Below, one piece after another: positions 1,550-37,967 of a stretch of 37,967 nt of DNA. The number at the start of each line of letters is the position of its first letter. The first letter of the stretch is position 1. The notes beneath the pieces were generated by a model that was given only the letters and a program-made list of their open reading frames with translations, was not told the origin of the DNA and made no database searches. A program made the position numbers and the translations under genes. The stretch spans positions 1 through 37,967 of the forward strand of contig MPMZ01000027.1 of assembly GCA_002238765.1 (NCBI GenBank), read 5' to 3'. The stretch is from Nitrospira sp. bin75 (GTDB taxonomy: Bacteria > Nitrospirota > Nitrospiria > Nitrospirales > UBA8639).

Positions 1550-1613
1550 TGTCCGCCCCAGCACGTGGCTGTGAAGCAAGGGATGACGCTGGGTGGAGCC
1601 GAAGGAAAAAGTG

Positions 1614-9716: not shown

Positions 9717-11039
9717 CTAGAGTGCTTCGAGCCGGCCCTGGGCTCTGGCGAGATCTACGCGCGAGGCGTTGAAATTGAACAGTGCTTCAATGAGGTTGTC
9801 CCGGGCTTGCGCCACCCGCGTTTGGGCGTCCGTGACTTCGATGTTGGTCGCCAGGCCGACCGCGAAGCGCCGCCGGGCCAGACGAAGTTCCTGGAACGCC
9901 AACCGAAGCCCTTCCTTAGCCACGGCGACCTGTTGTTGGGTCGATTCCATCGTCAACAGGGCGTCCCGGACTTCCAATCCGACTTGCCGTTCGACGTCAC
10001 GCGTTCTGATGGATTCCAGGCGAACCAGACTGCGCTGTTCGGAAATGCGGCCTTCACGCTGGCCGCCGTCGAACAGGGGAATGGAGAGCAGGACCTGGAC
10101 GTTGTCGGTGGTTAGCGCGTCACCGGGCTGGTTCCCGATCAATCCCAAGTCGCCGCTGCCCGCGAGAGAGGGCACGCGTTCCATGACCACGGAACTTAAG
10201 GTGAGTGCAGCCAAACGTTCCCGTTTTTTTTGGGCTTTGAGTTCGACCCGGTGTTCCCGGGCGACCTGCAGGGCTCCGTCCACGGTCTGCGGGGTGACGG
10301 GGACGAGTTTCAGGTCGTCCGTCAGGATCAACTCCACGTCGAAGGAGAGCCCGATGCCGCGGCTCAGGTTGAGTTTGGCGCTGCCGAAGTCGTTGCGGGC
10401 GACGAGCAAGCGTTGCTTTTCGTTTTCGAGTTGCACTTTCGCGCGGGTGACGTCCAGCCGGGTGGCCATGCCGACCGATTTGCGTTCCATGGCCAGGCGC
10501 AACAGTTCGTTATTGAGCTTGACGTCGGCCAAGCGGGCCTTGACGGATTTTTTGACCCGCAAGGTTTCCAGGTACGCCAGGGCGACCAGGGCCATGGTGT
10601 CCATTTTCTGGGTTTCCGAGTCCAGGCCGGCCACTTCGATATTCGTTCGGGCCGCGCGCCATCTCTGGATCAGACTCAGGCTGAAGAGATTCTGGTTCAG
10701 CGTGATGCGGCCTTCGTAAAAGTCACGGGGAATAGTGCCCCCCCTTCCGCCGAAGGAGCCCAGGAATAATCGCCTTCTCGCTCCGCTGACGCGGGCGGAC
10801 AGGTTAGGCAGCAGGGCTCCGCGCTGGGTCACGGCTTGCTCTTCCGCCTGCGTCACGCGCTCTTTGAAGATCTGCACCGTGGGGTTGTTATCCACGGCCG
10901 CCCGCATGGCGTCACTCATGCTCAGTCGGAGTTCGAGCGGGGGTTGCCGGAACGCGGCCTCATCCCGGGTGTCCTGAGCCCAGGCGAAGCCCGCCATTCC
11001 CGAGAACCAAACGATGCCGGCGAAGATGATGGCGATCAT
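9717..11039 (-). CDS. TolC-family outer membrane efflux channel
   Basis: 440 residues with a cleavable signal peptide (residues 1-21, ending GFAWA before QDTRDEA). Two OEP repeats are visible, each with long helices (MSDAMRAAVDNNPTVQIFKE; later LRLARRRFAVGLATNIEVTD and VAQARDNLIEALFNFNASRV). This fits a trimeric outer-membrane channel with a periplasmic tunnel. The ATG at 11037-11039 has a GAAGAGG ribosome site. It is the third gene of an MFP-RND-OEP operon, 52 nt after the RND gene, and would form the exit duct of that pump. Confidence 0.93.
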   Translation of the reverse strand: MIAIIFAGIVWFSGMAGFAWAQDTRDEAAFRQPPLELRLSMSDAMRAAVDNNPTVQIFKERVTQAEEQAVTQRGALLPNLSARVSGARRRLFLGSFGGRGGTIPRDFYEGRITLNQNLFSLSLIQRWRAARTNIEVAGLDSETQKMDTMALVALAYLETLRVKKSVKARLADVKLNNELLRLAMERKSVGMATRLDVTRAKVQLENEKQRLLVARNDFGSAKLNLSRGIGLSFDVELILTDDLKLVPVTPQTVDGALQVAREHRVELKAQKKRERLAALTLSSVVMERVPSLAGSGDLGLIGNQPGDALTTDNVQVLLSIPLFDGGQREGRISEQRSLVRLESIRTRDVERQVGLEVRDALLTMESTQQQVAVAKEGLRLAFQELRLARRRFAVGLATNIEVTDAQTRVAQARDNLIEALFNFNASRVDLARAQGRLEAL

Positions 11040-11091
11040 AACGGCCTCTTCAAACTGGTTGTTGCCACGATGTTGTCCATAACTCTCCCGA

Positions 11092-14000: not shown

Positions 14001-14289
14001 CCGGAAACCGAAGGATGATTTCAGCGGAGTCGTAGGAACTTTCGCCGAACATTTTCTCCAGCCCTTCCACACCTTTCAGTTGCTCTTCCTGTTTGTCCAC
14101 GATTTCGCGTTCGACTTCCTTGGGGCTGGCCCCCTGCCACCGGGTCGCAATCGTGATCTCGGGTTTGGAGACGTCGGGTGTGAGCTGGATGGGCAGCTTC
14201 ATGAGCGAGACGAGCCCGAAGAGGGACACGAGAATCACGACCACGGTCGTGGTGACGGGGTAGCGGATGGCGAATTGAATGACGTTCAT
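11092..14289 (-). CDS. RND efflux transporter, HAE1-type inner-membrane pump
   Basis: 1065 residues, full length. Twelve transmembrane segments are arranged as TM1 (FAIRYPVTTTVVVILVSLFG), a large periplasmic loop, TM2-6, a second loop, and TM7-12. TM4 carries LAGGMLVDNSIVVLENIYRHR, with a single Asp where the AcrB group has a pair (DD), so proton relay details may differ. The pump is powered by proton motive force and exports hydrophobic or amphiphilic compounds. The ATG overlaps the end of the MFP gene by 4 nt (ATGA), so translation is coupled. The substrate cannot be inferred. Confidence 0.95.
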   Translation of the reverse strand: MNVIQFAIRYPVTTTVVVILVSLFGLVSLMKLPIQLTPDVSKPEITIATRWQGASPKEVEREIVDKQEEQLKGVEGLEKMFGESSYDSAEIILRFPAGTNTETALLRVSNRLNQVKEYPDEVDEPVISSANTRGSAMGWFIFEPSEDNPVEIDTMRDFAEDVIKARFERIPGVAASNVYGGRKRELRVLVDPLKLAIRSLTVLELAQALDQENRDYSAGDFDEGKRSYVVRTTGEYQSPEDVGNVIIARRDGAPVYVRDVATVSVAYQEPQHVVREMGRNSIAVNAIRETGANTLDTMQHLREAVEELNDEILQRRGFTLFQVYDETDYIYSSINLVQKNLVIGGILAVTILFLFLRTASTTFVVGLAIPVSIMGTFIALWVLDRNVNVISLAGMTLAGGMLVDNSIVVLENIYRHRESGKSLWKAAYDGTTEVWGAVLASTLTTIAVFVPIVFIEEQAGQLFRDIAIAISAGVGLSLLVSITVIPCLSARILTTTNRGRRRRAGRKKKIADRIGDFVYWMCGSVGARMVIVLGLTVFALGVITQFLPKAEYLPSGNRNLIFGVVLPPPGYNTEKYVRLGESIESVLTPHWDAEPGSPEEAALDGPSIRNFFYVARGRGVFMGGRTNDDADIRDLIPVFRRALADLPGIIGIVTQSSLFQRGLGEGRNIDIEITGPDLDKLLALGGRIFGQIQAILPGSQVRPKPSLDLGSPEVRVHLKRDRAADVQMTNQALGFTIDALVDGAKASDYQFEGDEIDLTIRGIDRYAERTQDLANLPIFTPGGRLTTVGDIAEVTLVAGPEQINHIERERAITIQVIPPSHIPLETAMDLIQQQVVRPIEEEGNLGRLYTIHLAGTADDLTKTYDALKYNLLLALLITYLLMAALFESFLYPLVIIFSVPLAAAGGLLGLSVVNRVIAHQPMDVLTMLGFIILIGVVVNNAILVVHQALNFMDPQRLNLWASEEDRATAGMPAREAIAQSVRSRVRPIMMSMLTTTFGLLPLVLASGAGSELYRGIGSVVLGGLMLSTMFTLLLVPAIFSLMMSWKLKGRTAPSEAVLGPEIRET

Positions 14290-15422
14290 GGGTCGTTGCC
14301 GGGAGCCTCGACAGGAGCGTCCAACACACGCACGGGTTGACCGGGGAACAGGCGTTCGTTGCCTTCCACCACGACGGTCATGCCTTCCCGGATCGGCCCT
14401 TCGATTTCCACGAGGTCATCGACGTGCAGGACGGCGGTCACCGGGAGTTGCTCGACGATCCCCTCGTTCACCCGAAACACGAATTGCTTGCCTCCCCGGA
14501 GGACCAGGGCGTCCTTCGGGATCACGATCCCCTGGTGAGGCCGGTCGATCCGGAACGTGACGCGGGATACCATGCCGCTCTTGATCGCCAAAGCGGGATT
14601 CGGGATAGCCACTTTGACCGGAAAGGTTCTCGCGGCTCGATCGGCCTGGGCGACCAGCGAGAACACGCTACCCCGGGCCTCAAACTCCGGCAGGCCGTCG
14701 AAGGTGGCGGTGACGGGGGCATGGATTTGAATATGACTCACGTAGCGTTCCGGAAGAGGAACTTCGATTTGCACGCGCGACAGGTCAACCATCTCGACAA
14801 CCGCGCCGCCTTCTTCCACCCACTGCCCGATCTCCGTAAATTCCTGCGTAATCCATCCATCAAACGGCGCGACGACTTTGGACTTGTTCAGGGAGTCTCT
14901 GACCTGCCGGATGTCGGCCTCCAATTGAGACAGGTGTTCTTTCAGCGCCGCTTCTTCGGCCACGGCGGCATCGAAGTCTTTCTGGGTCACGAGTTCTCTT
15001 TGAAAGAGGACGCGGACCCGGTTCAAATCCCGTTTGGCTCGTTGATAGCGAGCGCCGGACTCTCGATAAAGGGCCACGGCTGAATCGAGCCGGATCCGCA
15101 AGGTCTCCGTGCGCAAACGCGCCAGGAGTTGCCCGCGTGTGACCTTCATGCCTTCTTCCGCGGGAAAGGCCTGGACCAACCCTTCGACTTCGCTGGCCAC
15201 GACGCTACGTTTCCATGGTTCAACGGTCCCGACCAGCGTGGCGGTTTGCTTCACCTCTTGTTGAAGAACCGGTGCGACACGGACCGGCGCGGGCGGAGGA
15301 GCCGGGGGAGGAGGGGCGGCTTGTTGCTCGTTACATGCCGGGAGGGCAACCAGGCACAGGATCACGAAGAGAGGCCGGCAGGCCCTGCGAAACCACTGCT
15401 GAAACGGGTGCGGGATCATCAT
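14286..15422 (-). CDS. RND periplasmic adaptor (membrane fusion) lipoprotein
   Basis: 378 residues from the ATG at 15420-15422; a TTG 15 nt upstream is the alternative. A lipoprotein signal ends in the lipobox LPAC (followed by NEQQAAPPPP), so it should be lipid-anchored in the periplasm. Next come a biotinyl-lipoyl-like half (VGTVEPWKRSVVASEVEGLV), a coiled-coil hairpin (about residues 110-180), the second lipoyl half (VVAPFDGWITQEFTEIGQWV) and beta-barrel domains. It joins the RND pump to the TolC-like channel. It is the first gene of the operon and sits behind the promoter at 15477-15504. Confidence 0.93.
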   Translation of the reverse strand: MMIPHPFQQWFRRACRPLFVILCLVALPACNEQQAAPPPPAPPPAPVRVAPVLQQEVKQTATLVGTVEPWKRSVVASEVEGLVQAFPAEEGMKVTRGQLLARLRTETLRIRLDSAVALYRESGARYQRAKRDLNRVRVLFQRELVTQKDFDAAVAEEAALKEHLSQLEADIRQVRDSLNKSKVVAPFDGWITQEFTEIGQWVEEGGAVVEMVDLSRVQIEVPLPERYVSHIQIHAPVTATFDGLPEFEARGSVFSLVAQADRAARTFPVKVAIPNPALAIKSGMVSRVTFRIDRPHQGIVIPKDALVLRGGKQFVFRVNEGIVEQLPVTAVLHVDDLVEIEGPIREGMTVVVEGNERLFPGQPVRVLDAPVEAPGNDP

Positions 15423-15476
15423 AACGGGAGCGATCAACGAAGCCGATAATCATATCTCTCAGTCAATAATAAGGAT

Positions 15477-20052: not shown

Positions 20053-20582
20053 GAGCCTATCTTTTTCGCGTACTTGGTTTGGACATAGTCACGGCAGAGA
20101 AAATCGACGGTAATTCCAACCTTAGCTAAGGCCTTCTCCCATCCCAACCATTTACTATCTGTGGCCTGCAGAATAGGTGGATTTCCAGGGTGCGCGTTGG
20201 CAACAGCGACAAACTTGCGATCAGAAGGATCAAAGTTTCGCAACTTGGCATGGTTGGGAAACTCATCATATGAGTTGCCGTTCTTGACAATTGGTATTTG
20301 GGTAACTTTATCGGCATTCCAGCGATGATCGTGAACCCATTTCATAAAACGGTCACCAACGCCAGGTTGCCCTTTCATGGAAAGCTGTTGCCGGTATTCA
20401 TCGAAGATTTCGTCTCCAGCATCAATGACCAGTCCGCGCTTTCTTATAATGTGCTCAACCGCCCCAATACATGCCAGCACGCAATCATCGGAAACATCAG
20501 AGTTAGGATCATGTTGGGTGGCAAGGTTGGCTGTTTTCGGTACATTCGTATCCACCAGACATTTATTCTTCAGAAGATTCAC
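20049..20582 (-). CDS. PIN-domain nuclease of the ATPase-PIN-ligase operon
   Basis: 177 residues; GTG start overlaps the ATPase stop by 4 nt (GTGA), and its own stop overlaps the ligase start in the same way. PIN-like acids are seen at D11 (KCLVDTNV), D61/E62 in the middle helix, D121 (PSDRKFVAVANAH) and D142 (ATDSKWLGW). PIN domains are Mg-dependent ribonucleases and often cut tRNA or mRNA. It is larger than a VapC toxin and has no VapB-like partner. Position between an ATPase sensor and a ligase suggests a regulated RNA-cutting effector. Confidence 0.8.
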   Translation of the reverse strand: MNLLKNKCLVDTNVPKTANLATQHDPNSDVSDDCVLACIGAVEHIIRKRGLVIDAGDEIFDEYRQQLSMKGQPGVGDRFMKWVHDHRWNADKVTQIPIVKNGNSYDEFPNHAKLRNFDPSDRKFVAVANAHPGNPPILQATDSKWLGWEKALAKVGITVDFLCRDYVQTKYAKKIGS

Positions 20583-21988
20583 TTGTGAGGCGCACCTTGC
20601 TCTTTGCGTCTTTCCATTGCCGCTTTTCCATGGGCGACAACATCTTCCATCTCATCTCCAAAAAAGTTTTCCGGCCAGTTCTGAATATTCCCGTAGAGGT
20701 CGATTTCCAATGGAACAAGAGTGGCTGGCGTGTTCGTGACGTTGGCGAAATAGACTGATACCTTTTCCTTGGGGAGACGATCCTCGGCAATCCGACGCTG
20801 CAGACGACGAAGAAAATGTTCCGAATGGGTTTCAATGACCAACTGGATGTTTCTGTCGGCATGATTTTCTCTGGAGTTGATCACATCGATCATCACATCC
20901 GCTAAAGCAGATTGAGCACGGGGATGAAGGTGAATTTCCGGCTGCTCCATTAAAATGATCGATCCCGGTGGCGCATAGAAACACTGTACCAGCACCGGAA
21001 GAACCTGCGAAATGCCGAACCCGACGTCCAGAAGGTCTACCGAATCATTTGAGCCTTTCGTGCGAACTTTGACCTCATACTCTTGCCGTTTTCTGGAGAT
21101 GGGGTTGACCTTGAATGTCTCGATTAACCCCATTTGTTTTAAAGCTGAAGCAACGATTTCCTGTAAAGGCCTATTTTTCAAATTAGGCCCCAAGCTGATT
21201 TTACGGTTCCGCGCGGACAGAATAGCTGCAATCGCGTTTTCACCCTCGTAACCTACACTTTCCGGCTCACTGCCCGACCAGGAATACAGACGTTCCGCCC
21301 TAGTCCGAAGTGGACCAAGATAGGAAAGGGAGCCAAACAGTTTTTCATGCCGTAAGTTCAATGCTTGAGCAAAGTCCGCGTTCTGATAGTAAGCCACTAC
21401 CTCATCGGGGAACCCGTAAAAGCGAACCGGAGCACCAATGGGCCACGCTCGTCCTTGTTTGCGCCTCAGCTTGTATCCGGTGGCACCAACTTCGTATCCG
21501 GACTTGTTTGTAGCCTTGCGACCCATTGTAAGGGTTAACGTGACTTCATCATTCTTCATCAACTCGTATTTAAGATGATTCAGCCCTGGCGAGTTCAGGT
21601 CTTTGCTTTCCAGACCCGTGTCCTCCAATCCGACTTCTGCATGAAACGTCAAATCTTCTCCAGAAAACGGTTTCCCGGAAACAGGATCTTCAATTTCCAG
21701 GGGCGCACGTAGTGACCACCGGTACTCAAACGCAATCTTGTGTGAAGCATTGCGGTTAAAGACCATCTCTTGATAAGAGCCGAGTTGGACCGCCGAGTAT
21801 TTCCCGCCCGGATAAAACACGGCCTTTCGGTCAGGCAACTCAACTGTCTGTTTGAGCATCATCAGGAATTGTCCGATACTGGATTTGCCTGAACTGTTGG
21901 CGCCGAAGAACAGGGAAATAGGAGCCATCTCGATCTTGCCGGTATCCTTCCAGCCTTTGAAATTTTGTATTCTCAAGTGCTTGAACAT
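20579..21988 (-). CDS. DUF3696-type AAA (SMC/OLD-like) ATPase
   Basis: 469 residues. N-terminal MFKHLRIQNFKGWKDTG is typical of RecF/OLD-like ATPases. Walker A is FGANSSGKSS (residues 28-37), the signature region is LLDVGFGISQVLPVLVQCF, Walker B is ILMEQPEIHLHPRAQ, and the switch histidine is in VIETHSEHFLRRL. The C-terminus (EIDLYGNIQNWPENFFGDEM) matches DUF3696. Such ATPases serve as sensors or regulators in defence modules (Septu, PARIS and OLD-like systems). It is the first gene of the operon. The DNA is more AT-rich than the flanking housekeeping genes, suggesting transfer. Confidence 0.88.
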   Translation of the reverse strand: MFKHLRIQNFKGWKDTGKIEMAPISLFFGANSSGKSSIGQFLMMLKQTVELPDRKAVFYPGGKYSAVQLGSYQEMVFNRNASHKIAFEYRWSLRAPLEIEDPVSGKPFSGEDLTFHAEVGLEDTGLESKDLNSPGLNHLKYELMKNDEVTLTLTMGRKATNKSGYEVGATGYKLRRKQGRAWPIGAPVRFYGFPDEVVAYYQNADFAQALNLRHEKLFGSLSYLGPLRTRAERLYSWSGSEPESVGYEGENAIAAILSARNRKISLGPNLKNRPLQEIVASALKQMGLIETFKVNPISRKRQEYEVKVRTKGSNDSVDLLDVGFGISQVLPVLVQCFYAPPGSIILMEQPEIHLHPRAQSALADVMIDVINSRENHADRNIQLVIETHSEHFLRRLQRRIAEDRLPKEKVSVYFANVTNTPATLVPLEIDLYGNIQNWPENFFGDEMEDVVAHGKAAMERRKEQGAPHK

Positions 21989-26618: not shown

Positions 26619-26971
26619 TGGTGGAGGTGGCGGGATTTGAACCCGCGTCCGAAGATATTCAGCACAACGGTCCTACGTGTGTAGCCAATGATTTAGAATT
26701 CGCAACCGCCCACGCCCACTGACCGGCTTAGAGCGTTCGCTAGCCCAGAAAAGTCTCATCCGCCGTTGCTGAGCACCAACATTGGACCAGCCTGCTGAAG
26801 TAGCGCCTCATCCATGCCCGCAGACAGAGAATGGGGAGACGTCGCAGTCAATTAAGCTGCGAGAGCCAAGTCTTGATTGGCAATTATTGGTTTCCCGAAG
26901 GTTTAACGAGACTCCGAGAAGCTCGACACGCACCGTTGACCTCCTGATCCCCGTCGAAGCCAGTCACCCCC
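26619..26971 (-). ncRNA. ssrA: Transfer-messenger RNA (tmRNA)
   Basis: 353 nt. The 5' end GGGGGTGACTGGCTTCGACG (from 26971) and the 3' end with the T-arm GGTTCAAATCC and acceptor CACCTCCACCA (CCA at 26619-26621) pair over 7 bp to give the tRNA-like domain. The tag frame ends at a TAA (26852-26854) and its last codons read A-N-Q-D-L-A-L-A-A, the LAA ending being the usual proteolysis signal. The exact resume codon is uncertain; GCC at 26881-26879 would give a short tag. tmRNA rescues stalled ribosomes together with SmpB. A terminator follows at 26581-26614. Confidence 0.96.
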
Positions 26972-27115: not shown

Positions 27116-27144
27116 TTGAAAAAAATCTTCTATCGCGCTATACT
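27116..27144 (+). promoter_or_regulatory. Sigma70-type promoter of the ssp-like operon
   Basis: TTGAAA (27116-27121), a 17-nt spacer and TATACT (27139-27144) give a near-consensus promoter about 95 nt before the first gene. The region 26972-27240 is AT-rich and has no gene. No strong operator palindrome was seen. Confidence 0.7.
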
Positions 27145-27240
27145 TATCTCTATCAGTTTCTCGGTTTACATCCTGACCAATCGTAGCGCTCCACCTTCTC
27201 TAAGGACCATGCATCGACCTCGGTGCCTGCGGTCTACTTG

Positions 27241-28221
27241 ATGTCTACTCAATATCCTCAACATAGAGATTCTACAGAACCGGCAAAAACTTATCGGATT
27301 TCAGGCCACGAGTCGTTCCCATGCCGCTATGCATGGCTACCCAAAGCAGTGCGTGGTCTACAAGAGGATCCGAAACTTTTTGGAGATGAAGAAGGCGCAA
27401 TGGTCAAGTTGGGTGTCGGTAAAAATATGGTTCGTTCCATTCGCTTTTGGTCGCAAGTGATGGGCATGGCGGAAGCAGAGACAAAGAGGCCTAGCCTTTC
27501 GGTCACCGATTTCGGAAGAATCCTGCTTGCCGAAAAAGGGGTCGATCCGTTTCTGGAAGACATTCGAACGCTTTGGCTCCTTCACTGGAACCTAGCCACC
27601 AATATAGCGAATCCACTATTGGCGTGGGACTTTTTGCTGAACCGCTGGCACGAACCTGAACTCGTGCCCAGTGCTGTCCTCAAGGCACTTGAAAGGGAGG
27701 CGGAAAAGCAGGAGAGTCAGTTCTCGACGGTCACGTTGCAACAACACTTCAACACGTTTCTGCACACCTACTATCCAACTCGGGGCCGGAAAGGAGGAGT
27801 TCAGGAAGACAACCTGGATTGTCCACTCGTCGAACTTGAACTCGTCCTTAGAATAGGGGAGCGTGAGCTTGATCGCCAGTCGGGTAAACATGAAACGATT
27901 TATGGATTCAATCGCGAAGAAAAACCCGACATCAGTCCGGAACTCTTTGTGTACTGCCTAAATGACTTCTGGGAAAAACGTCACGAGGTGGAATCGACCC
28001 TGACAGTACGGGAGATCGCTCATGGTCATGGCAGCCCGGGTCAGATATTCAAGCTTCCAGAAGAAGATGTCCGCATACGAGTTGAGGCTTTGGCGCAGCA
28101 GACAGACGGATTCTTAAAATACATGGAATCGGCGAACTTGCAACAAGTCCAAAAAACCCGAGACCGGAACAGCATGGAGTTATTGAAGGAAATCTATTCG
28201 GGCGCGGTGAATGATGGTTAG
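27241..28221 (+). CDS. sspB: DUF4007 protein, SspB-like DNA phosphorothioation component
   Basis: 326 residues from the ATG at 27241; a GTG at 27223 is the alternative, and neither has a strong ribosome site. The N-terminal segment YRISGHESFPCRYAWLPKAV and the LGVGKNMVRSIRFWSQVMGM stretch are diagnostic of DUF4007. DUF4007 proteins occur in single-strand DNA phosphorothioation (SspBCD) clusters, where SspB is described as the DNA nickase. The C-terminal part includes VREIAHGHGSPGQIFKLPEEDV. It overlaps the ATPase gene by 11 nt and is first in the operon after the promoter at 27116. Assignment to SspB rests on DUF4007 plus the gene order B-C-D. Confidence 0.78.
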   Translation: MSTQYPQHRDSTEPAKTYRISGHESFPCRYAWLPKAVRGLQEDPKLFGDEEGAMVKLGVGKNMVRSIRFWSQVMGMAEAETKRPSLSVTDFGRILLAEKGVDPFLEDIRTLWLLHWNLATNIANPLLAWDFLLNRWHEPELVPSAVLKALEREAEKQESQFSTVTLQQHFNTFLHTYYPTRGRKGGVQEDNLDCPLVELELVLRIGERELDRQSGKHETIYGFNREEKPDISPELFVYCLNDFWEKRHEVESTLTVREIAHGHGSPGQIFKLPEEDVRIRVEALAQQTDGFLKYMESANLQQVQKTRDRNSMELLKEIYSGAVNDG

Positions 28222-31200
28222 GAAAAGAATAGGCGATCTGTTCCAGGTCAAAAGCCGGTTCCTTCGTTCTACGCATCTTGAAAGGGATTTTAACGATCCG
28301 ACTTGTTTGTCCGGGTACGTGGCGACGAATTTCACCTGTTCTTGTTTGGGGTACGTAGCAAATGGGCTTAAACCGCGTTCCGGGCAACGAGCATGGCGGA
28401 TGACCGGCGACTATGGCAGCGGAAAGTCGAGTTTTGCGCTGTTACTCGCACACTGGTTCGCTGGCCGTGAAAAGATTTTTCCACCGGAGCTACGCAAAGC
28501 CGTTGCCTTTCGTCAGTTCGGTGTAACGCGACGGCCTCATTTCGTCCCCGTGTTGGTGACTTGCTCGCGGCAGGCTTTGGGAACATCAATCCTAAGTTCA
28601 CTGCACCAGACCCTAACTCAGATTTACGGACGTGGGACCAAGAAAAATCTCGTGCTTACAGTTCAACGCTTGCTCGATGCAGGACACGAACCTACCGACG
28701 ACCAAATCTTCCAACTCGTTCACGAAGTGAATTCCCGGATCATTGCAGATTCGAAGGGTAAGGGGCTGATCTTAATTCTGGATGAACTCGGAAAATTCTT
28801 AGAGTTTGCCGCCCTACATCCACAACGGCAGGATATTTTCCTCTTACAACGTCTGGCCGAAGCGGCTTCACGGAGCGGTGATCAAGCATTGTTTGTTGTG
28901 TGTCTCCTGCATCAAGGATTCAATGCTTACTCGGACCTGCTCAGCCAATCAGCCCAACGCGAATGGGAAAAAGTCGCGGGGCGGTTTGAAGAAATTGTCT
29001 TCAATCAGCCTATCGATCAAGTCGCCAATGTCATCGCTTCAGCCATAAACGTCCGCACAAGGGGAATACCACAAACGGAGTCACTGGAATTGAGACAAGC
29101 CATGGAACAAGGTATGGCGCGAGGTTGGTTTGGCTCTAGCTCAACCAACTCTTTGCTTACTGTCGCAACCCGGCTTTACCCCCTTCACCCGACGGTCTTA
29201 CCGATTCTCATTCGCACGTTCCGGCGTTTCGGACAGAACGAGCGTTCGCTCTTCAGCTTCCTGATGTCAAACGAACCATTTGGCTTGCAGGTATTTTCAG
29301 AGCGAAGCCCACACGAAGGAGATCTGTATCGCTTGCACGACTTCTATGATTATGTGCGGACAAACTTCGGTCATCGTCTTGCCGTCCAGAGCTACCGCAG
29401 CCACTGGAACCTCATTGATTCCGTAGTGGACAGTTTCGCCACGGAAGACGAACTCCAAGTTAAGATTCTAAAAACAGTAGGAATCCTCAACCTGATTAAC
29501 GATGGAGATCTCCTACCCACCGAGGAATTGGTTGTGTTGGCTTTGGCAAGATTTCACCCAACCGAACGAAAACAGGTTCAAAGCACCCTCAAGAAACTCC
29601 ACAAGGACAGGCGGGTTCTCTACGACCGTGGTCGGGCTCGGGGTCTCTGCCTGTGGCCGCACACGTCTGTCGATCTGGAAAAGACTTACGAGGATGCAAG
29701 CCGAGTCGTTGATGCCCCGCAGCACGTAGGCAGCTTTATCAAGGATTCTTTGGAGTCCCGGCCCATCGTCGCTCGGCGACATTACATCGAGACGGGGAAC
29801 CTCCGTCACTTTGATGTCCACTATTGCTCAGCGAACGAATTGTCCGGTCTGTTTGAACGGCGCCTCGCTGACGCCGATGGACTCATCATCGTGCCGTTGT
29901 GCGAAACGCCAATCGAGCGTGAGACTGCATTGGAGTTCGTAAAAGACCCAAGAGTCAAACAGTGCTCGAACTGGCTGGTAGCGGTTCCTTCTCCCCTCAA
30001 TCACTTGGCGAACTTGGTTCAAGAGGTTCAACGATGGGAGTGGATTTCTACGAATACGCCCGAACTGAATGCGGATAAATTCGCCCGCGAAGAAGTCTCA
30101 CGTCAAAAAGCCGCAGCCCGCCTACAGTTGGAAAAAAGAATTCAAAGCTACGTCGGGTTCAAACATTTTACCGGCCAGATGATGCTCGAATGGTTCCACA
30201 AAGGGCATCAGCTCAAAATCAAAGAGGGCCGCGACCTCCTGTCTATGCTGTCTCGAATATTCGACGAAGTGTACAACTGTGCTCCGCGCATTCATAGTGA
30301 ACTCGTCAATCGTCGCAATCTGAGTTCAGCGGCGGCAGCGGCGCGGATGCGGCTGATCGAACGTATGTTCACGGATGCGGAAACTGAATTCTTGGGCATG
30401 ATTCCTGAGAAAAAGCCACCGGAGATGAGCATGTATCTCTCGGTGCTCAAGAATACAGGACTGCACGATGTGCGAGCGAACCGTTGGCAAATAGGCGTGC
30501 CCAACGACGAGATTGATAAGAAATGTAACGTCCTGCCGACGCTTGCACGGATTCGTGAAATTGTGATGGAAGAACCGGATAGCCGCGTCAACGTAGCATT
30601 GTTGTTTGCTGAACTGAGAAAGCCACCTTACGGCGTTCGCGATGGACTCATTCCACTTTTCCTGACAGTGTTTGCCATCGCATATGAAAAAGACGTGGCT
30701 TTTTACAAAGACGGCACCTTTCTCCGTGAACTCAATGGAGAAGCGATGCTCGTGCTTACGAAAGCTCCGGAGCGATTTGATATTCAATATTGCAAGATCG
30801 AAGGTGTTCGGGCTGAACTCTTTCAACGGCTCCTAACTGTATTGGACATCAAAGGGTCGGCACAGCAAGAAATCGAACTCCTAGACGTGGTAAAGCAACT
30901 GTGCGTTTTTGTTGCTCAACTTCCGAACTACGTGTTGAATACAAAGAAGCTCTCCGGCACGACATTGGCTGTTAGAGACGCCATCTTGAACGCCCGAGAA
31001 CCTGTGACGCTCTTGTTCACGGAACTGCCGAAGGCATGTGGCTTTGAACCGATCCCGGCCGTAACCTCAGCTAGCAAAACGGTTCCAGTTTTTGTGAAGA
31101 CGCTAAAAGACGCATTGGACGACTTAAAGATAGCTTTCCCTGAATTGCAGGAGCGGTTGCGGAAAGAATTGCGTGCCACGTTTGCCTTGCCGGGCGCTTT

Positions 31201-31681
31201 TCAACAGTTTCGGATGGCCCTTTCAGCCAGGTCTGAACAAATTCTACTCACGATAACAGAACCGAAGCTTCGAGCATTCTGTCTAAGGTTGATGGATGAC
31301 AGTTTGCCGGAATCAGATTGGCTCGAATCAGTCGCGAGCTATCTTGCACTCAAACCACCATCTAAATGGCATGACGTGGAAGAAGAGATCTTCAGCTACG
31401 AGCTTAGCCAATATGCCGCAAGATTTCATCGTGTGGAGAGTGTTGCGTTCGCCGGTGGCGAATTGCCCAAGAATTCCGTTGGCGTTCGGTTGGCGATAAC
31501 TCAAGCCGACGGGGTCGAGCATGAGCAAGTGGTTCACTACGCACCAAACGAAGAAGACAAGCTGCAAGATCTGCAAAGGCAATTTGAAGGCTTATTGACC
31601 AAAGACAAACGTCTTGGTCTCGTAGCGGCATCTCGGGCAATTTCGAAGAATTTGGTAGAAGGAGAAAAAGGAAAGGCATGA
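28211..31681 (+). CDS. sspC: Large P-loop ATPase, SspC-like (BrxC/PglY-like)
   Basis: 1156 residues. Walker A is GDYGSGKSS (residues 66-74), and Walker B is GLILILDELGKF with D191/E192. The remainder is long, helical and without other motifs I recognise. A large ATPase with this layout is found between the DUF4007 and PAPS-reductase-like genes in phosphorothioation clusters, and related ATPases (BrxC/PglY) occur in BREX systems. It overlaps both neighbours (11 nt with the DUF4007 gene, 4 nt with sspD), so expression is tightly coupled. Probably drives assembly or remodelling of the modification complex. The SspC label is by context; the ATPase call is firm. Confidence 0.75.
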   Translation: MMVRKRIGDLFQVKSRFLRSTHLERDFNDPTCLSGYVATNFTCSCLGYVANGLKPRSGQRAWRMTGDYGSGKSSFALLLAHWFAGREKIFPPELRKAVAFRQFGVTRRPHFVPVLVTCSRQALGTSILSSLHQTLTQIYGRGTKKNLVLTVQRLLDAGHEPTDDQIFQLVHEVNSRIIADSKGKGLILILDELGKFLEFAALHPQRQDIFLLQRLAEAASRSGDQALFVVCLLHQGFNAYSDLLSQSAQREWEKVAGRFEEIVFNQPIDQVANVIASAINVRTRGIPQTESLELRQAMEQGMARGWFGSSSTNSLLTVATRLYPLHPTVLPILIRTFRRFGQNERSLFSFLMSNEPFGLQVFSERSPHEGDLYRLHDFYDYVRTNFGHRLAVQSYRSHWNLIDSVVDSFATEDELQVKILKTVGILNLINDGDLLPTEELVVLALARFHPTERKQVQSTLKKLHKDRRVLYDRGRARGLCLWPHTSVDLEKTYEDASRVVDAPQHVGSFIKDSLESRPIVARRHYIETGNLRHFDVHYCSANELSGLFERRLADADGLIIVPLCETPIERETALEFVKDPRVKQCSNWLVAVPSPLNHLANLVQEVQRWEWISTNTPELNADKFAREEVSRQKAAARLQLEKRIQSYVGFKHFTGQMMLEWFHKGHQLKIKEGRDLLSMLSRIFDEVYNCAPRIHSELVNRRNLSSAAAAARMRLIERMFTDAETEFLGMIPEKKPPEMSMYLSVLKNTGLHDVRANRWQIGVPNDEIDKKCNVLPTLARIREIVMEEPDSRVNVALLFAELRKPPYGVRDGLIPLFLTVFAIAYEKDVAFYKDGTFLRELNGEAMLVLTKAPERFDIQYCKIEGVRAELFQRLLTVLDIKGSAQQEIELLDVVKQLCVFVAQLPNYVLNTKKLSGTTLAVRDAILNAREPVTLLFTELPKACGFEPIPAVTSASKTVPVFVKTLKDALDDLKIAFPELQERLRKELRATFALPGAFQQFRMALSARSEQILLTITEPKLRAFCLRLMDDSLPESDWLESVASYLALKPPSKWHDVEEEIFSYELSQYAARFHRVESVAFAGGELPKNSVGVRLAITQADGVEHEQVVHYAPNEEDKLQDLQRQFEGLLTKDKRLGLVAASRAISKNLVEGEKGKA

Positions 31682-32487
31682 GCCAAGGAACGCGGCACAT
31701 CCTCTGTATGTCGGGAGGCAAAGATAGTACCGCACTCGCGCTTTATATGCGTGATCGTGTGCAGGACATGGAATACATCTTTTGCGACACCGACAAGGAA
31801 TTGACCGAGACGTATGAATACTTGAATCGCGTTGAAGCCTTCCTAGGCAAAAAGATTGTGCGCCTGAATGCCCGCGCTGGATTCGACCACTGGCTTGAGG
31901 TTTTTGGCGGTTATCTTCCATCGCCGAATATGCGATGGTGTACGAAGTTGCTTAAATTGAAACCGTTTGAGGAATACGTGGGGGAAGATGCTGTGATCAG
32001 CTACGTCGGCCTTCGCGCCGACGAAGACCGCGTCGGTTATATCAGCACAAAGCCGAATATAAAAGCTGTGTTTCCATTCAAAGAAGATGGGATTGACTAC
32101 GCAGGCGTTATGAAGATCCTGCGGGATAGTGGCATTGGGATGCCGCCCTATCTCACATGGGGCAGGACCCATTCAGGATGCTACTTCTGCTTTTTTCAGC
32201 GCCCGATTGAGTGGGTGCGTCTGCTTGAAACCCATCCTGACCAATTCGAAGAGGCCCAGAAGTACGAGAAGATTACGGATGATCCTGGTAAGACCTTCAC
32301 CTGGATTCAAGGAATGCCCTTAAGCGAACTTCGAAAACCTGAGAATGTCGCTAGAATCAAGGCACGTTATGCTGAGTCCGAAGAACGGAAAAAAGGCAAG
32401 CGAGGCAACAAAAAACTCATCGAAGTCTTAGGGGGGATAGAAGAAGATGATGACGAACCTAGGGCGTGCTTGATTTGTCAGTTATGA
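31678..32487 (+). CDS. sspD: PAPS-reductase-like ATP pyrophosphatase, SspD/DndC-like
   Basis: 269 residues. The PP-loop SGGKDS is at residues 12-17, followed by FCDTDKELTETYEYL. Cysteines C88 (NMRWCTKLL), C168 and C171 (GCYFCFF), plus C264 and C267 (ACLIC) could ligate an iron-sulfur cluster as in DndC. In phosphorothioation systems this enzyme adenylates the DNA backbone and helps replace a non-bridging oxygen by sulfur supplied by a cysteine desulfurase. No desulfurase gene is in the window; the host IscS could serve. It starts within the sspC stop codon (ATGA) and its own stop overlaps the next gene in the same way. Confidence 0.85.
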   Translation: MSQGTRHILCMSGGKDSTALALYMRDRVQDMEYIFCDTDKELTETYEYLNRVEAFLGKKIVRLNARAGFDHWLEVFGGYLPSPNMRWCTKLLKLKPFEEYVGEDAVISYVGLRADEDRVGYISTKPNIKAVFPFKEDGIDYAGVMKILRDSGIGMPPYLTWGRTHSGCYFCFFQRPIEWVRLLETHPDQFEEAQKYEKITDDPGKTFTWIQGMPLSELRKPENVARIKARYAESEERKKGKRGNKKLIEVLGGIEEDDDEPRACLICQL

Positions 32488-33656
32488 CAACAGACTCGAC
32501 GTCTCAAAAGAACTTCCCTTTGGAGACGGGAGTTGCCAGCGTGAATGTCACTGCTCGAATTGCAACTGAACTCTTCACGGGTTTTGTCTCCCAGTCGCCC
32601 ATATGGTTTGATAACAACAGTGGCGTTTTGTCCGTCAATACGCAGTCAAGGCGTCTCGGTTGCATCATTTACATTCTTGGACAAGTAGCCCGCGGCAGAA
32701 AAGTCGAGTCGTTGCTTCTCTCGCCGTCAACTGAAGAACTTGCCGAACTAAAAAAGAACATCAATAGCAATGGGTTTGATTCTGGTCAACTCACGTCGAA
32801 GGCATCCAGCGTTAAACACTATCTCGATATAGCCATTGCACTTCATTTTTTAGTTCGCCAGGGGTCAGTTTTCAATCTTACGGGGCGAGGCCTATATCTT
32901 CTTCAGGCCGTTCGCCCGGATGCCGCTCATCCTTACCCATTGACTGGTCCCTCCAAAACGTTCTTTTTTCATTCTCTTCTAGCGACCGATTACTTTGGCC
33001 TATCCACGATAGCTCGTTTATTGCTGAATGGAAATAGACGACCAATTTCGATACAACGCGAGTACCAAAAGGAACTTCTATATGTCCTTGGCGGTGCTGC
33101 GTCAAGTTCGACAAGCACACGGTTAGCTAGTCTGGCCAAGGACAGGATGATTTCCATTCGGAATTGGAAAAGACCGGAGTCTTACGCGGAGCATTTGGTA
33201 TCCGCGAAACTGCATTGGCTGGCTGATTTAGGTATTCTGGAGTCTGTTCCATCTGCCAACACCAATCTTGCTGCCAAGAAAGAACACAGGGACTGGCTGG
33301 AAGATCTTACGAACACAACAACACCAACTGACTCACACCTTTTGGCATTTACGCTAAACTACTGCTCGACAATCCAAAAAAGAGAAATGTTTTTGACTGC
33401 GGATAATATTTGTTCGGCTCTGGATGAGGCTTTCAAATGGCTCGTTCGAGAACCGACGTTGGCTAAAATCAGATGTAGTGACTTTCTCCTTTTTTTATTG
33501 TGTTTTCACACTCCGTTGCTCCTATGCCTTGTAAAAAACAAGCAAAAGCTGATTCAGGCAACAACCGTGGAGTGTCATCATCACCGTTACCAGATTCATT
33601 TTGCTTCACGTCCGACACAGTCCTTCATCATTCGCCATGGCAAGAAATCCTCTTAA
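32484..33656 (+). CDS. Uncharacterised 390-residue protein of the ssp-linked module
   Basis: ATG at 32484 overlaps the sspD stop by 4 nt, so it belongs to the same translational chain. No family is recognised. The first half looks helical and includes LGCIIYILGQVARGRK and a winged-helix-like stretch AIALHFLVRQGSVFNLTGRG, followed by FFHSLLATDYFGLSTIARLL. A hydrophobic patch SDFLLFLLCFHTPLLLCLV lies near residues 335-355 and might be a buried helix or a membrane segment. Its end overlaps the PIN gene. Position between the modification genes and the nuclease genes suggests a specificity or adaptor role, which is inference only. Confidence 0.7.
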   Translation: MTTDSTSQKNFPLETGVASVNVTARIATELFTGFVSQSPIWFDNNSGVLSVNTQSRRLGCIIYILGQVARGRKVESLLLSPSTEELAELKKNINSNGFDSGQLTSKASSVKHYLDIAIALHFLVRQGSVFNLTGRGLYLLQAVRPDAAHPYPLTGPSKTFFFHSLLATDYFGLSTIARLLLNGNRRPISIQREYQKELLYVLGGAASSSTSTRLASLAKDRMISIRNWKRPESYAEHLVSAKLHWLADLGILESVPSANTNLAAKKEHRDWLEDLTNTTTPTDSHLLAFTLNYCSTIQKREMFLTADNICSALDEAFKWLVREPTLAKIRCSDFLLFLLCFHTPLLLCLVKNKQKLIQATTVECHHHRYQIHFASRPTQSFIIRHGKKSS

Positions 33657-34335
33657 CCAATCAGCCATGAAACATTTTACAAAAACCGCTTGCGTCCTTG
33701 ATACGTGTAGTATCATTAACCTTGATGACATCGAGTTGGCAAGAAAGGATATTCTCTATTACATGCGACAATTTTTTGACGTCCGTGTTTGTCAAACAAT
33801 TCGAAAAGAGTTACAGCAACACACGAATCTTGTATCAAGCCGAGAAATTACATATTGGAAGCGTTTTCTGAGTAATCGAACACATTTGCCAACGACTCTC
33901 ACCAATGACCAAGATATTATTGGACCATTCTACAGTACTCCGCCTGCAACCTTTGGTGTTCGAGATAAAGGCGAACATGGTAATGCGCGAGTAGCCCTTG
34001 AGCTTCTACTTACAAATACAATCGGCCATGCCGTCTTTGTAACTGATGACGAAAAAGCTTCCAATTCCTTTTTAAAGTCTATGAGACAGTCTTTCCCTGG
34101 CATAAACTTATGGACATCCGCAGACGTTATATTGTACGTGGGGGCAGTTCTCCTCAAAGAGCGTAAAACTAGTTTTGATGACGTTAAAGCAGCCCTTCGT
34201 AACGTATACGCAGCGGGGGCAAAGAAATGGAGCGACAGAACCGAGAGTGAAAAGGACAAAATTATCAGGAAGTCTTCCAAGAGCGTGGGCCATCTCAAGT
34301 TGATCAAGAAGGTCACTGATCACTGGAGGCACTGA
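33637..34335 (+). CDS. PIN-like nuclease of the ssp-linked module
   Basis: 232 residues from the ATG at 33637, which overlaps the previous gene by 20 nt; a second ATG at 33667 is also possible. The N-terminal ACVLDTCSIINLDDIEL carries the first PIN aspartate, GEHGNARVALELLL provides the central acid, and GHAVFVTDDEKASNSFL the last pair. A C-terminal helical extension (SFDDVKAALRNVYAAGAKKW) follows. PIN domains are metal-dependent nucleases. Within this operon it is a strong candidate for the cutting subunit that spares phosphorothioated DNA or attacks phage nucleic acid. No VapB-like antitoxin is next to it. Confidence 0.75.
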   Translation: MARNPLNQSAMKHFTKTACVLDTCSIINLDDIELARKDILYYMRQFFDVRVCQTIRKELQQHTNLVSSREITYWKRFLSNRTHLPTTLTNDQDIIGPFYSTPPATFGVRDKGEHGNARVALELLLTNTIGHAVFVTDDEKASNSFLKSMRQSFPGINLWTSADVILYVGAVLLKERKTSFDDVKAALRNVYAAGAKKWSDRTESEKDKIIRKSSKSVGHLKLIKKVTDHWRH

Positions 34336-34337
34336 AT

Positions 34338-35471
34338 ATGTTTGAAAAATTTCACCTAAAAGATAGTGCATTTCCGGTAACACCTGGAGATCATGACAAA
34401 ATACCATGGTTTGGTTTCAACAACCTGAAAAGCGAGTTCCAAGCCATTCTTGACCGTTCTAGTTCTGAGTACTTGCGTCTGTGTGTGTTGAATCGGGGCC
34501 GTCTTGGTGCAGGAAAGACCCATGCAGCACAATATTTCTCTGCACAATATTCTCACCTGGAGGAAGTAGGAAGTTACTTTCGATTCATCCCCATAATCAT
34601 TGAGTCTCCTAAACAACCACAAAAGGCATTTGTCGATTTTTCTAACAGGCTCTTTAATGCCGTCACTTTTGATCAGATCGTCCAAGCGGCTGATAATCTT
34701 CGGCGGTTTGGGGACTCCAATAAGCTGCTTTTGGACGCAACTGGTTCTGAGGATATAGCCGCTGCACTTTCGAAGATCGATAATGATAATCGCCTTCTCA
34801 CAAGGACATACTTACTTGGGGGAGGAACTGCCAAGGAGTTACGAGAAATCGGTGTTGCGAAACGCTTGATAAGCGACCACGAATTTGCATTGGCAATTGT
34901 CGGGGTGCTGTATCTTCTCATTCACGGGAGGTCGGAAGAGCGCAAAAACTTTAGTCGAATCCTGCTTTGGGTCGATGAAATGGAAGACCTCGTTTACTTT
35001 ACGACCAGGTACTATTTATCCTTTACGCAGGCTCTTCGAGAGGTTATCGACCGAACGAACTCTCACCTGACGTTTATGCTGAATTTCACTTTTAGTGAGC
35101 CAGAAGAACTCCCCGTTATTGAGAATGTCCTAGGACAAGCCATTATGCAGCGGGTGAATCAACATGTCATTTTCCAACAGCCAGGCGCCGATGAAATGAG
35201 AGACTACCTACTGGATTTGCTCAAATATAACCGTATTGAGGGCACGAAATGCTCTCCAACGTTCCCATTCAGCAATGATGCGTTCGACTTATTGATTAAG
35301 GCGGCAACATTAAAAACTCCGCGTTTTCTCAACAAATTGTGCGACGCCTTACTTCGAGATTTGGAGGAGCACTCCACGTTCGAAATCAAGAAGACAGGTG
35401 AGATTCAACGCGAAGTCTTGGAAGAAAAACTTCCTCCATTGCTGGCACGCTTGGAAGAAGACAGGAGTTGA
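34338..35471 (+). CDS. AAA-type ATPase of the ssp-linked module
   Basis: 377 residues, starting 2 nt after the PIN gene stop. Walker A is GRLGAGKTH (residues 54-62), and Walker B is ILLWVDEMED (D213/E214). The C-terminus (LLIKAATLKTPRFLNKLCDA and following) resembles the winged lid of ORC/MCM-type or STAND-like AAA ATPases. No nuclease or helicase motif is attached. It probably loads or gates the PIN or GHKL partner. An 82-nt gap with only a 22-codon frame separates it from the next gene. Confidence 0.78.
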   Translation: MFEKFHLKDSAFPVTPGDHDKIPWFGFNNLKSEFQAILDRSSSEYLRLCVLNRGRLGAGKTHAAQYFSAQYSHLEEVGSYFRFIPIIIESPKQPQKAFVDFSNRLFNAVTFDQIVQAADNLRRFGDSNKLLLDATGSEDIAAALSKIDNDNRLLTRTYLLGGGTAKELREIGVAKRLISDHEFALAIVGVLYLLIHGRSEERKNFSRILLWVDEMEDLVYFTTRYYLSFTQALREVIDRTNSHLTFMLNFTFSEPEELPVIENVLGQAIMQRVNQHVIFQQPGADEMRDYLLDLLKYNRIEGTKCSPTFPFSNDAFDLLIKAATLKTPRFLNKLCDALLRDLEEHSTFEIKKTGEIQREVLEEKLPPLLARLEEDRS

Positions 35472-35553
35472 ATTGAAAAAGATTTCGGTTGCGATGATAT
35501 GAAATGGATTCCGTTCAAATCCAGCTTTCCTGCAAAACAAGTGACTGATATTT

Positions 35554-37863
35554 ATGGCCTCTATTGATAGCAAAGCTTTATTTGAAAAAGTTTTCTTCGC
35601 TCCAACTGAAGATAAGGTTCGGGAGATTATTGACGAACATCCAGAGATTTTCCGTGATGAATGTTGGCACCCTTTAGGCGGTGACGAAAATTATTTTGGC
35701 ATCGTTAGAGGGCAGCAGTCGAACCCTATAGCGGCTATAGTCGAAAAAGTGACGAATTCCATCGACGCTCTTTTGATGAAAAAATGCCATGAAGCTGGAA
35801 TAGACCCCAAGGCTCCTGAGGCTCCGCGTAACATGGAGGAAGCACGACAGATATTTTTCGTCGATCACAAACAATGGGATCTTCAGGCCGTGAGGCGAAG
35901 GCAGGCCGAAGAAATTCAGATTATCGCTGACGGCCCACCGAGAAATACCTCAGTCATTATATATGACAACGGTGAAGGACAGCATCCTGAAGATTTTGAG
36001 AAGACTTTTCTTTCCCTCGTTCGCGGCAATAAGATTCACATCCATTTTGTGCAAGGTAAATACAACATGGGTGGCAGTGGCGCCCTGTTATTTTGCGGTA
36101 AGGAACGCTATCAACTCATCGCATCGAAACGGTTTGATAACTAGGGCAAGTTTGGATTTACCCTCGTGCGGCAAAGAAAAATAGGGAATGCGCAAGATGC
36201 TAAGAGACACAGCTATTTTGAGTATTTGAAAATTCGAGGAAGCGTTCCCTCGTTTGAATGCGGTGATATGGATTTAAGACTATTTCGACGGAAGTTCAGA
36301 ACTGGCACAATTATAAAAATGTATTCCTATCAATTTCCTCGGGGCTATGCTGGGTTTGCTCAAGATCTGAATCAAAGCTTAAACGAGTTCTTGTTTGAGC
36401 CGGTGCTCCCAATTCTGACAGTCGATAAGAAGGAGCGTTATCCAAACAACAAGGTTTTGGAACTCGATTTGTTTGGTCTCAAGCGGCGTTTGGAGGAAGA
36501 CAAAAATGACTACGTCGATTCATTTTTTTCTGAAGAATACGAGGACGAACTGTTTGGCAAGGCAAAAGTTAGCTGTTTCGTGTTTAAGCCAAAGCTGTCA
36601 GGGAGAGATGCCAAGAAGACCAAAGAAATAATTCAGGATAGATTTTTCAAAAATTCCATGTCTGTGATGTTTTCTGTTAATGGACAGGTTCATGGGCATT
36701 TCACTTCTGAATTCATTACACGCACCCTTAAATTCAACCTACTCAAAGATTCTCTGCTGATTCATGTGGATTGTACCGGCATGAAGCCCGATTTCCGTGA
36801 GGAGTTGTTTATGTCAGACCGAGAACGCCTTAAGCAAGGCGTTGAGGCATCGCAATTGCGAAAATATTTAGGAGAAAAACTTCAAAGGAGCCATCTGGAT
36901 GAAATAAACCGCAGACGTAAAGAGTCGATTGGGCTTGAAAGCGAAGACACTGCTGAACTTATCAAATCATTTGCCAAGAATCTCCCTAAGAACAGTGAAT
37001 TGTTTAAGCTTTTGGAGCAGACTCTCAAATTAGAAGAGCACAAAGACAAAAAGAAAGGACCAGGAAAGAATAAACCCAATGAACCAAAAGAAGAAAAACT
37101 TTTTAACCCCAACCGTTTTCCGTCTATGTTTAAATTTCGAAGAAAGAAAGACGGCATAAACGTGGTTTCTGTTCCTTTGAACGGGGAAAAGACTCTGTTG
37201 TTCGATACCGATGTCGAAAACGAATATTTTGATCGCGTTGAAGACCCGGGGAGTTTGAGCCTCGCATTATTGCAGTTCAAGTATTCCAATACAGGGGGTG
37301 GCGACAGGCCAGGGCACCAGAAAGAAATTTCAAAATTGCTGAATATTGTAAAAAGTAGTCCGCACAATGGTACCATTAAAGTCAGCATCAACCCTACAAA
37401 AGAGGTTCAGGTTGGAGATGAACTCCAGGTCAAAGCGGCTTTAGATGGAAGCGGAGAGGTGCTTGAAGAAATCGTTTTGGTCAAGATAACTGAGGAAAAA
37501 GGGTCAATAGAACCTACTCCCAAGGAAAAGGACGACAATGATAATTTAGGTCTTCCGAAACTCAAGCGCGTCCAGAAACTAGATTGGAATAATCTCGATG
37601 AACAAGGTATTTCAATGGATCACGGGACTGTGATGTACCCTTTAGGAGAAGGAGATAAGCTGGAAGCGATCTATATCAATTTGGACAGCAGCACATTTTT
37701 GGGTCACCGTTCAAAAATAAAGAACGAAGATCAAATACTGCTGGCAGAAAAGAAGTTTCTTGCCTCTGTTTATTTTCACACACTGTTTCTTTACGTTATC
37801 ACAAAGAAGAAGAATTATAGTTTGCGTATCGACAAAGACGGAGAGGTGGCTCGGGAAATTTGA
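35554..37863 (+). pseudogene. GHKL (Hsp90-like) ATPase interrupted by an amber codon
   Basis: One frame of 770 codons with a single internal TAG at 36142-36144 (codon 197). The N-terminal part has the GHKL N-box EKVTNSIDA (E64, N68, D71), the DNGEG motif (138-142) and the ATP-lid glycines NMGGSG (171-176). After the stop, reading resumes in the same frame (GKFGFTLVR) and continues for 572 residues with a charged Lys/Glu linker near 300-330 (from 36166). The rest looks intact, so the change is probably recent (CAG or GAG to TAG) or a sequencing error. Truncation at 196 would leave the ATP site almost complete but remove the C-terminal domain. Related GHKL proteins occur in defence modules such as MORC-like and Gabija-neighbour genes. 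Confidence 0.8.
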
Positions 37864-37926
37864 ACAAGGGGGATAAGTGACATTTCTGCTCACGAGCGGC
37901 ATGATTGCCGTGAATGAGGAGGACCC

Positions 37927-37967
37927 ATGACGAGACGACTACGCCGAAACCATAGCCCGGCTTTGAA
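37927..37967 (+). CDS. IS3-family transposase OrfA, 5' end only
   Basis: The last 41 bp encode MTRRLRRNHSPAL, the N-terminus typical of IS3-group OrfA transposases, behind a GAGGAGG ribosome site. The insertion sequence presumably begins within 37864-37926; its terminal inverted repeat cannot be verified without the other end. It marks the right border of the defence operon. Confidence 0.7.
   Translation, partial: MTRRLRRNHSPAL

Follow-up and report, generated by a model that had tools for sequence, protein, structure and literature searches.

A cassette with a predicted PIN nuclease, exchanged between sspBCD and a GHKL ATPase gene in Nitrospira sp. bin75, as a candidate partner module of phosphorothioate-linked defence

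A seven-gene operon beside the tmRNA gene of Nitrospira sp. bin75 carries sspB, sspC and sspD, followed by a three-gene cassette and a GHKL ATPase gene, and in congeners the cassette is replaced, at the same site, by three other genes. We consider it fairly probable that the locus encodes a defence system of modular build, linked to phosphorothioate (PT) modification and carrying a new partner cassette in an exchangeable slot. Formation of the PT mark is suggested by the homology of the Ssp proteins, and sensing of the mark and cleavage by predicted fold, gene order and analogy with SspFGH. Coordinates are those of the window, the whole stretch of 37,967 nucleotides that was analysed, in which the following features were located.

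26619–26971, minus strand: tmRNA gene (ARAGORN), a conserved chromosomal landmark adjoining the insertion site, with the same neighbour in congeners
27116–27144, plus strand: weak promoter-like site, TTGAAA-17-TATACT, 5′ of sspB (consensus scan)
27241–28221, plus strand: sspB (DUF4007; PADLOC SspB E 3.3e-110, Pfam DUF4007 1e-70)
28211–31681, plus strand: sspC, ATPase, 1156 aa (PADLOC SspC E 0, above BrxC-PglY at 2.7e-143)
31678–32487, plus strand: sspD, PP-loop/PAPS-reductase-type enzyme, 269 aa (PADLOC SspD 4.6e-112; Pfam PAPS_reduct)
32484–33656, plus strand: ‘P390’, 390 aa, predicted multi-winged-helix DNA-binding protein of the FokI/N.BspD6I/SspB type (structure model, Foldseek, VIA)
33667–34335, plus strand: predicted PIN-domain nuclease, 222 aa (alignments; structure model; VIA Z 11.3 with PIN proteins)
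34338–35471, plus strand: AAA ATPase, 377 aa, Walker A GRLGAGKT, Walker B LLWVDE (alignment; weak BrxC/BrxD matches)
35554–37840, plus strand: GHKL ATPase, about 800 aa in relatives, here with an internal TAG and a shortened 3′ end (Pfam HATPase_c_3 5.9e-6; homologue alignment)
37841–37967, no strand assigned: terminal part of a multi-copy repeat that is probably an insertion sequence and that truncates the GHKL gene and ends the contig (an identical stretch of about 60–128 bp stands at many further contig ends in this genome)

The seven coding regions, all on the plus strand, span 27223–37863 and begin directly past the 5′ end of the minus-strand tmRNA gene. The initial annotation had described seven same-strand genes behind one promoter, most of them joined by stop-start overlaps. 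The seven regions are indeed there, except that the GHKL gene is not intact, being interrupted by an in-frame TAG. Overlaps occur at three of the six junctions (SspB/SspC, 11 nt; SspC/SspD, 4 nt; SspD/P390, 4 nt), while the other three are gaps of 10 nt (P390–PIN), 2 nt (PIN–AAA) and 82 nt (AAA–GHKL). The single promoter does not stand: the consensus match at 27116 is no evidence for one, since the nine such matches in the region are not above chance (10.7 ± 3.2 in shuffles). The sspB reading frame has a possible GTG start at 27223 and an ATG at 27241; the ATG codons of P390 and PIN are at 32484 and 33667. Along the operon (27223–37840) G+C content declines, from 0.575 in the chromosome to its left to 0.505 in sspBCD, 0.45 in the cassette and 0.42 in the GHKL gene. 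The left part of the window holds dnaX (1593–3530), an ORF with an HSDR_N-type domain (type I restriction R protein; 4600–5574), an RND efflux operon (9717–15437) and an AAA_15/AAA_21 ATPase gene (20579–21988).

Profile matches identify SspB, SspC and SspD unambiguously (PADLOC E 3e-110, 0 and 5e-112, respectively), in agreement with the initial annotation, and the three genes stand together in one operon as an SspBCD module. No SspA-type cysteine desulfurase is encoded in the operon; relatives of this enzyme, at 36% identity, are present elsewhere in the host genome. Because IscS can substitute for SspA, and serves in Vibrio FF-93 (PMC8092258), the lack of SspA in the locus does not exclude it from the SspBCD modules. 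Neither SspE nor SspFGH, the latter of which damages DNA of hosts without PT, accompanies 83.9% of sspBCD loci, and whether such loci are orphans or have unknown partners is a question posed by Wang et al. 2021 (PMC8092258).

None of the four downstream genes matched a PADLOC model, those for SspE, SspF, SspG and SspH included, so that neither the P390–PIN–AAA cassette nor the GHKL gene is covered by that collection. PADLOC and Pfam found no DUF262/DUF1524 protein beside sspBCD, which bears out the earlier statement that SspE is missing. That statement had left a choice between an SspFGH-type variant and a new partner module, and the former falls away: PADLOC models of SspF, SspG and SspH match real SspFGH loci (L095) but nothing here, and profile comparison of the downstream proteins with SspF, SspG and SspH was negative except for a 16-column P-loop. 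Window genes gave no PADLOC match at E 0.01 to DndFGH or to PbeABCD, models of which PADLOC presumably contains, and no PglZ or BrxL match was obtained among the operon proteins. SspFGH, DndFGH, SspE and Type 4 BREX were each rejected as the partner on the absence of PADLOC matches and, for SspFGH, on the negative profile comparison. No paper joining the GHKL family or the PIN cassette with Ssp was found, in a search outside which most subscription papers and preprints fell, and priority is not proven.

Several described systems nevertheless share parts of this arrangement. SspABCD–SspFGH of Vibrio anguillarum FF-93 (PMC8092258) has the same sspBCD backbone and a three-gene partner cassette with a P-loop ATPase adjoining sspD, and the window's SspC is closest (44–45%) to the SspC of an SspFGH plasmid locus, but the window lacks SspF, SspG and the FtsK-like SspH and has P390, PIN, AAA and GHKL. 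SspABCD–SspE also shares the backbone, and in three loci (L014, L023, L032) the same GHKL family accompanies a full SspE, whereas the window locus is without a DUF262/DUF1524 protein. Operons of Orc/Cdc6, a nuclease and a DndG-like triple winged-helix (wHTH) protein (PMC10853773) combine the same three roles, those of AAA ATPase, nuclease and FokI/SspB/DndG-type multi-winged-helix protein; in the window, however, the predicted nuclease is of the PIN rather than the restriction-endonuclease fold, HerA/FtsK is absent, and the genes lie inside an sspBCD operon. Type 4 BREX has DUF4007, PAPS-reductase and BrxC/SspC homologues in common with it (PMC12839542), but the window lacks PglZ and BrxL, and SspC models score far above BrxC. 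ParaMORC GHKL ATPases (PMC2292703), likened to ours by the GHKL domain and a restriction-type gene neighbourhood, were described beside helicases and nucleases, not sspBCD. On plasmids (L092–L098), SspFGH sets stand beside SspC of the window clade, and two of these loci (L093, L094) combine SspF or FtsK-like genes with a second GHKL family of other loci. The host genome (G000) also has three unlinked DUF262 (GmrSD_N) ORFs of 487–566 aa, on contigs C67, C16 and C40, one of them weakly SspE-like.

P390 has no family match in PADLOC, PHROGs, NCBIfam or Pfam, and PDB sequence searches with the P390, PIN, AAA and GHKL profiles returned chance matches only. The AlphaFold2 model of P390, built from six sequences (pLDDT 66), contains helix-helix-hairpin units, the usual pattern of winged helices. 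Foldseek ranked the nickase N.BspD6I first (probability 1.00, E 3e-3), with BpuJI among the next, no E being below 0.001 for either the P390 or the PIN model; VIA gave FokI (Z 9.5; 180 residues, rmsd 4.0), N.BspD6I (9.3), SspB (7.7) and BpuJI (7.5), the aligned parts being mostly the N-terminal, DNA-binding regions of these proteins. Comparison of P390 with SspB by hhalign reached a probability of 47% only. P390 thus models, with modest confidence, as a multi-wHTH protein of the FokI/N.BspD6I/SspB type, with two to three winged-helix units in a FokI-like arrangement; FokI, DndG and SspB have been linked by a triple winged-helix module (PMC10853773; PMC12839542).

The second cassette protein is, on a model of modest confidence (pLDDT 60), of the PIN fold: nearly all of the VIA list are PIN proteins (best Z 11.3), and six relatives all share, without variation, the acidic residues D12, E48, E103 and D127/D128. 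Weak matches (Pfam BrxC_BrxD at 1.8e-4 in the relative in L082, PADLOC BrxD at 4.6e-4) hint that the AAA protein is distant kin of BrxC/BrxD-type ATPases; PADLOC, PHROGs, NCBIfam and Pfam gave no match worth naming for the PIN or AAA protein of the window. No plasmid match was obtained when AAA, PIN or P390 was the sole query, and AAA gave none in genome contigs or viral contigs. The sample of the window's phylum contained no convincing AAA relative in other genomes, and weak matches there, which cover the C-terminal third only, were taken as other ATPases.

The GHKL protein carries an N-box (EKVTNSIDAL), a DxGxG motif (DNGEGQ) and a glycine-rich motif (GKYNMGGSG), and its relatives are encoded by single ORFs of about 755–822 aa. 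The initial annotation missed that the gene is interrupted: the TAG at 36142–36144 splits the host protein into 196 and 565 aa. Its last ~34 residues are also gone, the match to a relative stopping at 37845, and this truncation coincides with the start of the multi-copy repeat at 37840/37841. In an alignment of the window protein with its three closest relatives, each was 48–49% identical to the Hymenobacter protein. One congener (G009) has an intact GHKL of 800 aa at the same site; in another (G011) it is split, at a different point, into 450 and 368 aa.

Linkage of the GHKL family to ssp genes was close wherever its surroundings could be followed. The three best relatives on plasmids each adjoin sspBCD. 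Among 84,980 species genomes scanned, 267 relatives came to light, and ssp genes were present in the flanks of 72 of the 80 loci examined, the remaining eight all being cut by contig ends; among loci with complete flanks the count was 47/47, the median distance being 2.1 kb and the maximum 6.5 kb. An unseeded draw of 345 Bacteroidota genomes was scored for co-occurrence of GHKL and DUF4007: DUF4007 occurred in 22 and strong GHKL in five (one being the seed genome), and in 5/5 of the latter (4/4 excluding the seed) DUF4007 lay on the same contig, at ~10 kb or less. Strong GHKL therefore implies sspB, while most sspB loci are without GHKL, so that GHKL marks a subset. Weaker GHKL relatives do occur without DUF4007 in these genomes.

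P390–PIN–AAA was found together with sspBCD and GHKL in five further loci, six including the window, from Acidobacteria (L061, with one weak DndF P-loop match), Gammaproteobacteria (L051, its AAA gene being on the remainder of the contig, L119), UASB270 (L030) and, within Bacteroidota, Chryseobacterium (L082) and Algoriphagus (L090). In the gammaproteobacterial locus the cassette is divergently transcribed from sspBCD and adjoins a second cassette. The association of the 390-aa and PIN proteins with sspBCD, which the earlier reading implied, held in 6/6 loci, the five further ones having been found through a GHKL seed, which makes the co-occurrence with GHKL and ssp partly one by construction. 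Around sspBCD and GHKL at least eight alternative cassettes were recognised: P390–PIN–AAA; full SspE (L014, L023, L032); a short DUF262 protein accompanied by either a kinase or a SIR2 protein; a DndB-like protein and its small partner; a second GHKL protein and its partners; a GIY-YIG protein together with an MzaB-like GHKL; a DndB fusion; and other rare sets. The six carriers of P390–PIN–AAA account for six changes on the SspC tree (FastTree) and five on the GHKL tree; these counts are minima from a single, rapidly built tree that has long branches and is without shuffles, and more weight is therefore given to near-identical neighbours with different cassettes (L070/L078, L087/L088 and L043/L051, and L080/L082 for GHKL).

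The exchange is seen most directly at the tmRNA gene itself. In two of 13 congeners (G009, G011) the same tmRNA-adjacent site is occupied by sspBCD and GHKL, at ~80–87% DNA identity to the window; the similarity ends with the sspD stop (32487) and sets in again ~10–15 nt ahead of the GHKL start, and the slot between holds three other genes in place of P390–PIN–AAA. The first of these encodes a ParB-like protein (PDB ParB/Noc relatives, E 9e-12), and the others a ~230-aa protein and a ~218-aa protein, the latter with a possible PD-(D/E)XK-like stretch by eye and no PDB match. These limits of similarity show that the three-gene block was replaced as a whole while GHKL remained with the backbone, in a natural cassette swap. 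The four-gene downstream module of the initial annotation is accordingly divided: P390–PIN–AAA do form one cassette, but GHKL goes with sspBCD across many different cassettes, at this same site in congeners too, and belongs to the backbone; the cassette survey and the congeners rule it out as part of a PIN module. The ParB-like three-gene cassette fills the sspD–GHKL slot in L140 (9286–11473) and L144 (7583–9760), and its first protein matches one other locus (L063).

In the mechanism proposed, SspB, SspC and SspD, with a desulfurase encoded elsewhere, would put PT marks on host DNA, and the ~800-aa GHKL protein, as a member of the backbone, would probably be a DNA- or complex-remodelling ATPase. 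The cassette would act as sensor and effector: P390, through winged helices of the FokI/SspB type, would read DNA, the AAA ATPase would gate or load the complex, and PIN would cut nucleic acid when DNA is without a proper PT mark. More generally, we rate as somewhat better than even the proposition that Ssp immunity has a large branch, so far undescribed, whose constant core is sspBCD with the linked ~800-aa GHKL and whose one exchangeable slot accepts at least eight unrelated kinds of sensor-effector cassette; P390–PIN–AAA, a PIN nuclease guided by a FokI-like reader, would be one of these. If true, this branch would explain part of the sspBCD loci without SspE or SspFGH. The exchanges suggest that Ssp-type immunity keeps its tagging core and exchanges the weapon. 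The subset marked by GHKL and the list of exchanging cassettes supply concrete candidates for the partner question of Wang et al. 2021 (PMC8092258), and the same-site swap between congeners separates core from effector without guesswork.

P390–PIN–AAA could instead be an independent defence system that reads no PT and uses the sspBCD–GHKL locus as a landing site. The divergent transcription of the L051/L119 cassette and its position beside another cassette fit such an account, as do distant AAA relatives without ssp or P390 (L116, L118) and the variability of the tmRNA-adjacent site within the genus. The window cassette, however, lies inside the operon, with a 4-nt overlap with sspD, its replacement in congeners falls precisely between sspD and GHKL, and all six P390 loci have sspBCD genes; we consider an independent system unlikely. 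Of the two AAA loci without ssp, L118 had at first resembled an AAA–PIN pair and was set aside, as its putative PIN and the neighbouring proteins show no profile match to the cassette.

Within the preferred reading, in which the cassette is the partner of sspBCD, the evidence on the PIN target points both ways. Most of the solved PIN proteins that match the model belong to RNases (VapC toxins, Rrp44, SMG6, protein-only RNase P), and PIN and HEPN endoRNases have been reported in PT-linked loci (PMC10853773), whereas PIN is here encoded with a predicted FokI/SspB-type DNA-binding protein, and the known Ssp partners SspE and SspFGH damage DNA. On this evidence it is evenly balanced whether the cassette, with PIN as an RNase, serves abortive infection or is instead a DNA restriction module; as to the substrate itself, RNA (an abortive response) appears marginally the more probable and DNA (restriction) marginally the less. 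Separately, and compatibly with PT-linked defence in relatives, the locus may be a decaying remnant in this host, its broken GHKL gene making it non-functional and the surviving genes passengers. Both the TAG and the truncation by the repeat accord with decay, as does the split GHKL of G011, but the other genes are all open and full length, and G009 retains an intact copy at the same site; we hold decay to be possible, on balance doubtful. The TAG may be a sequencing error of a draft assembly, an explanation that does not extend to the truncation, which is independent of it. With its GHKL broken, the system in this host may work less well or not at all; alternatively, being broken here and split in G011, GHKL may be dispensable.

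Other gene sets were met at this site and around distant relatives of the AAA gene. In a third congener (G001; L145, 2411–7342) the same tmRNA-adjacent site is occupied by an operon whose first protein (454 aa) weakly resembles SspD/DndC (E 1e-6) and is followed by ORFs of 700 and 511 aa; this is perhaps a Dnd-type system, which would make the site a possible hot spot of defence genes. In L116 (7280–10435) two AAA genes form a pair with no ssp gene in the vicinity. A similar pair of distant AAA relatives, in a genome of the phylum of L061 (L117, 7067–18499), adjoins, together with a HerA-like protein, sspBCD and a cysteine desulfurase-like gene; it is possibly another sspBCD partner set, and its combination of AAA pair and HerA-like protein recalls the Orc/Cdc6–HerA systems of PMC10853773.
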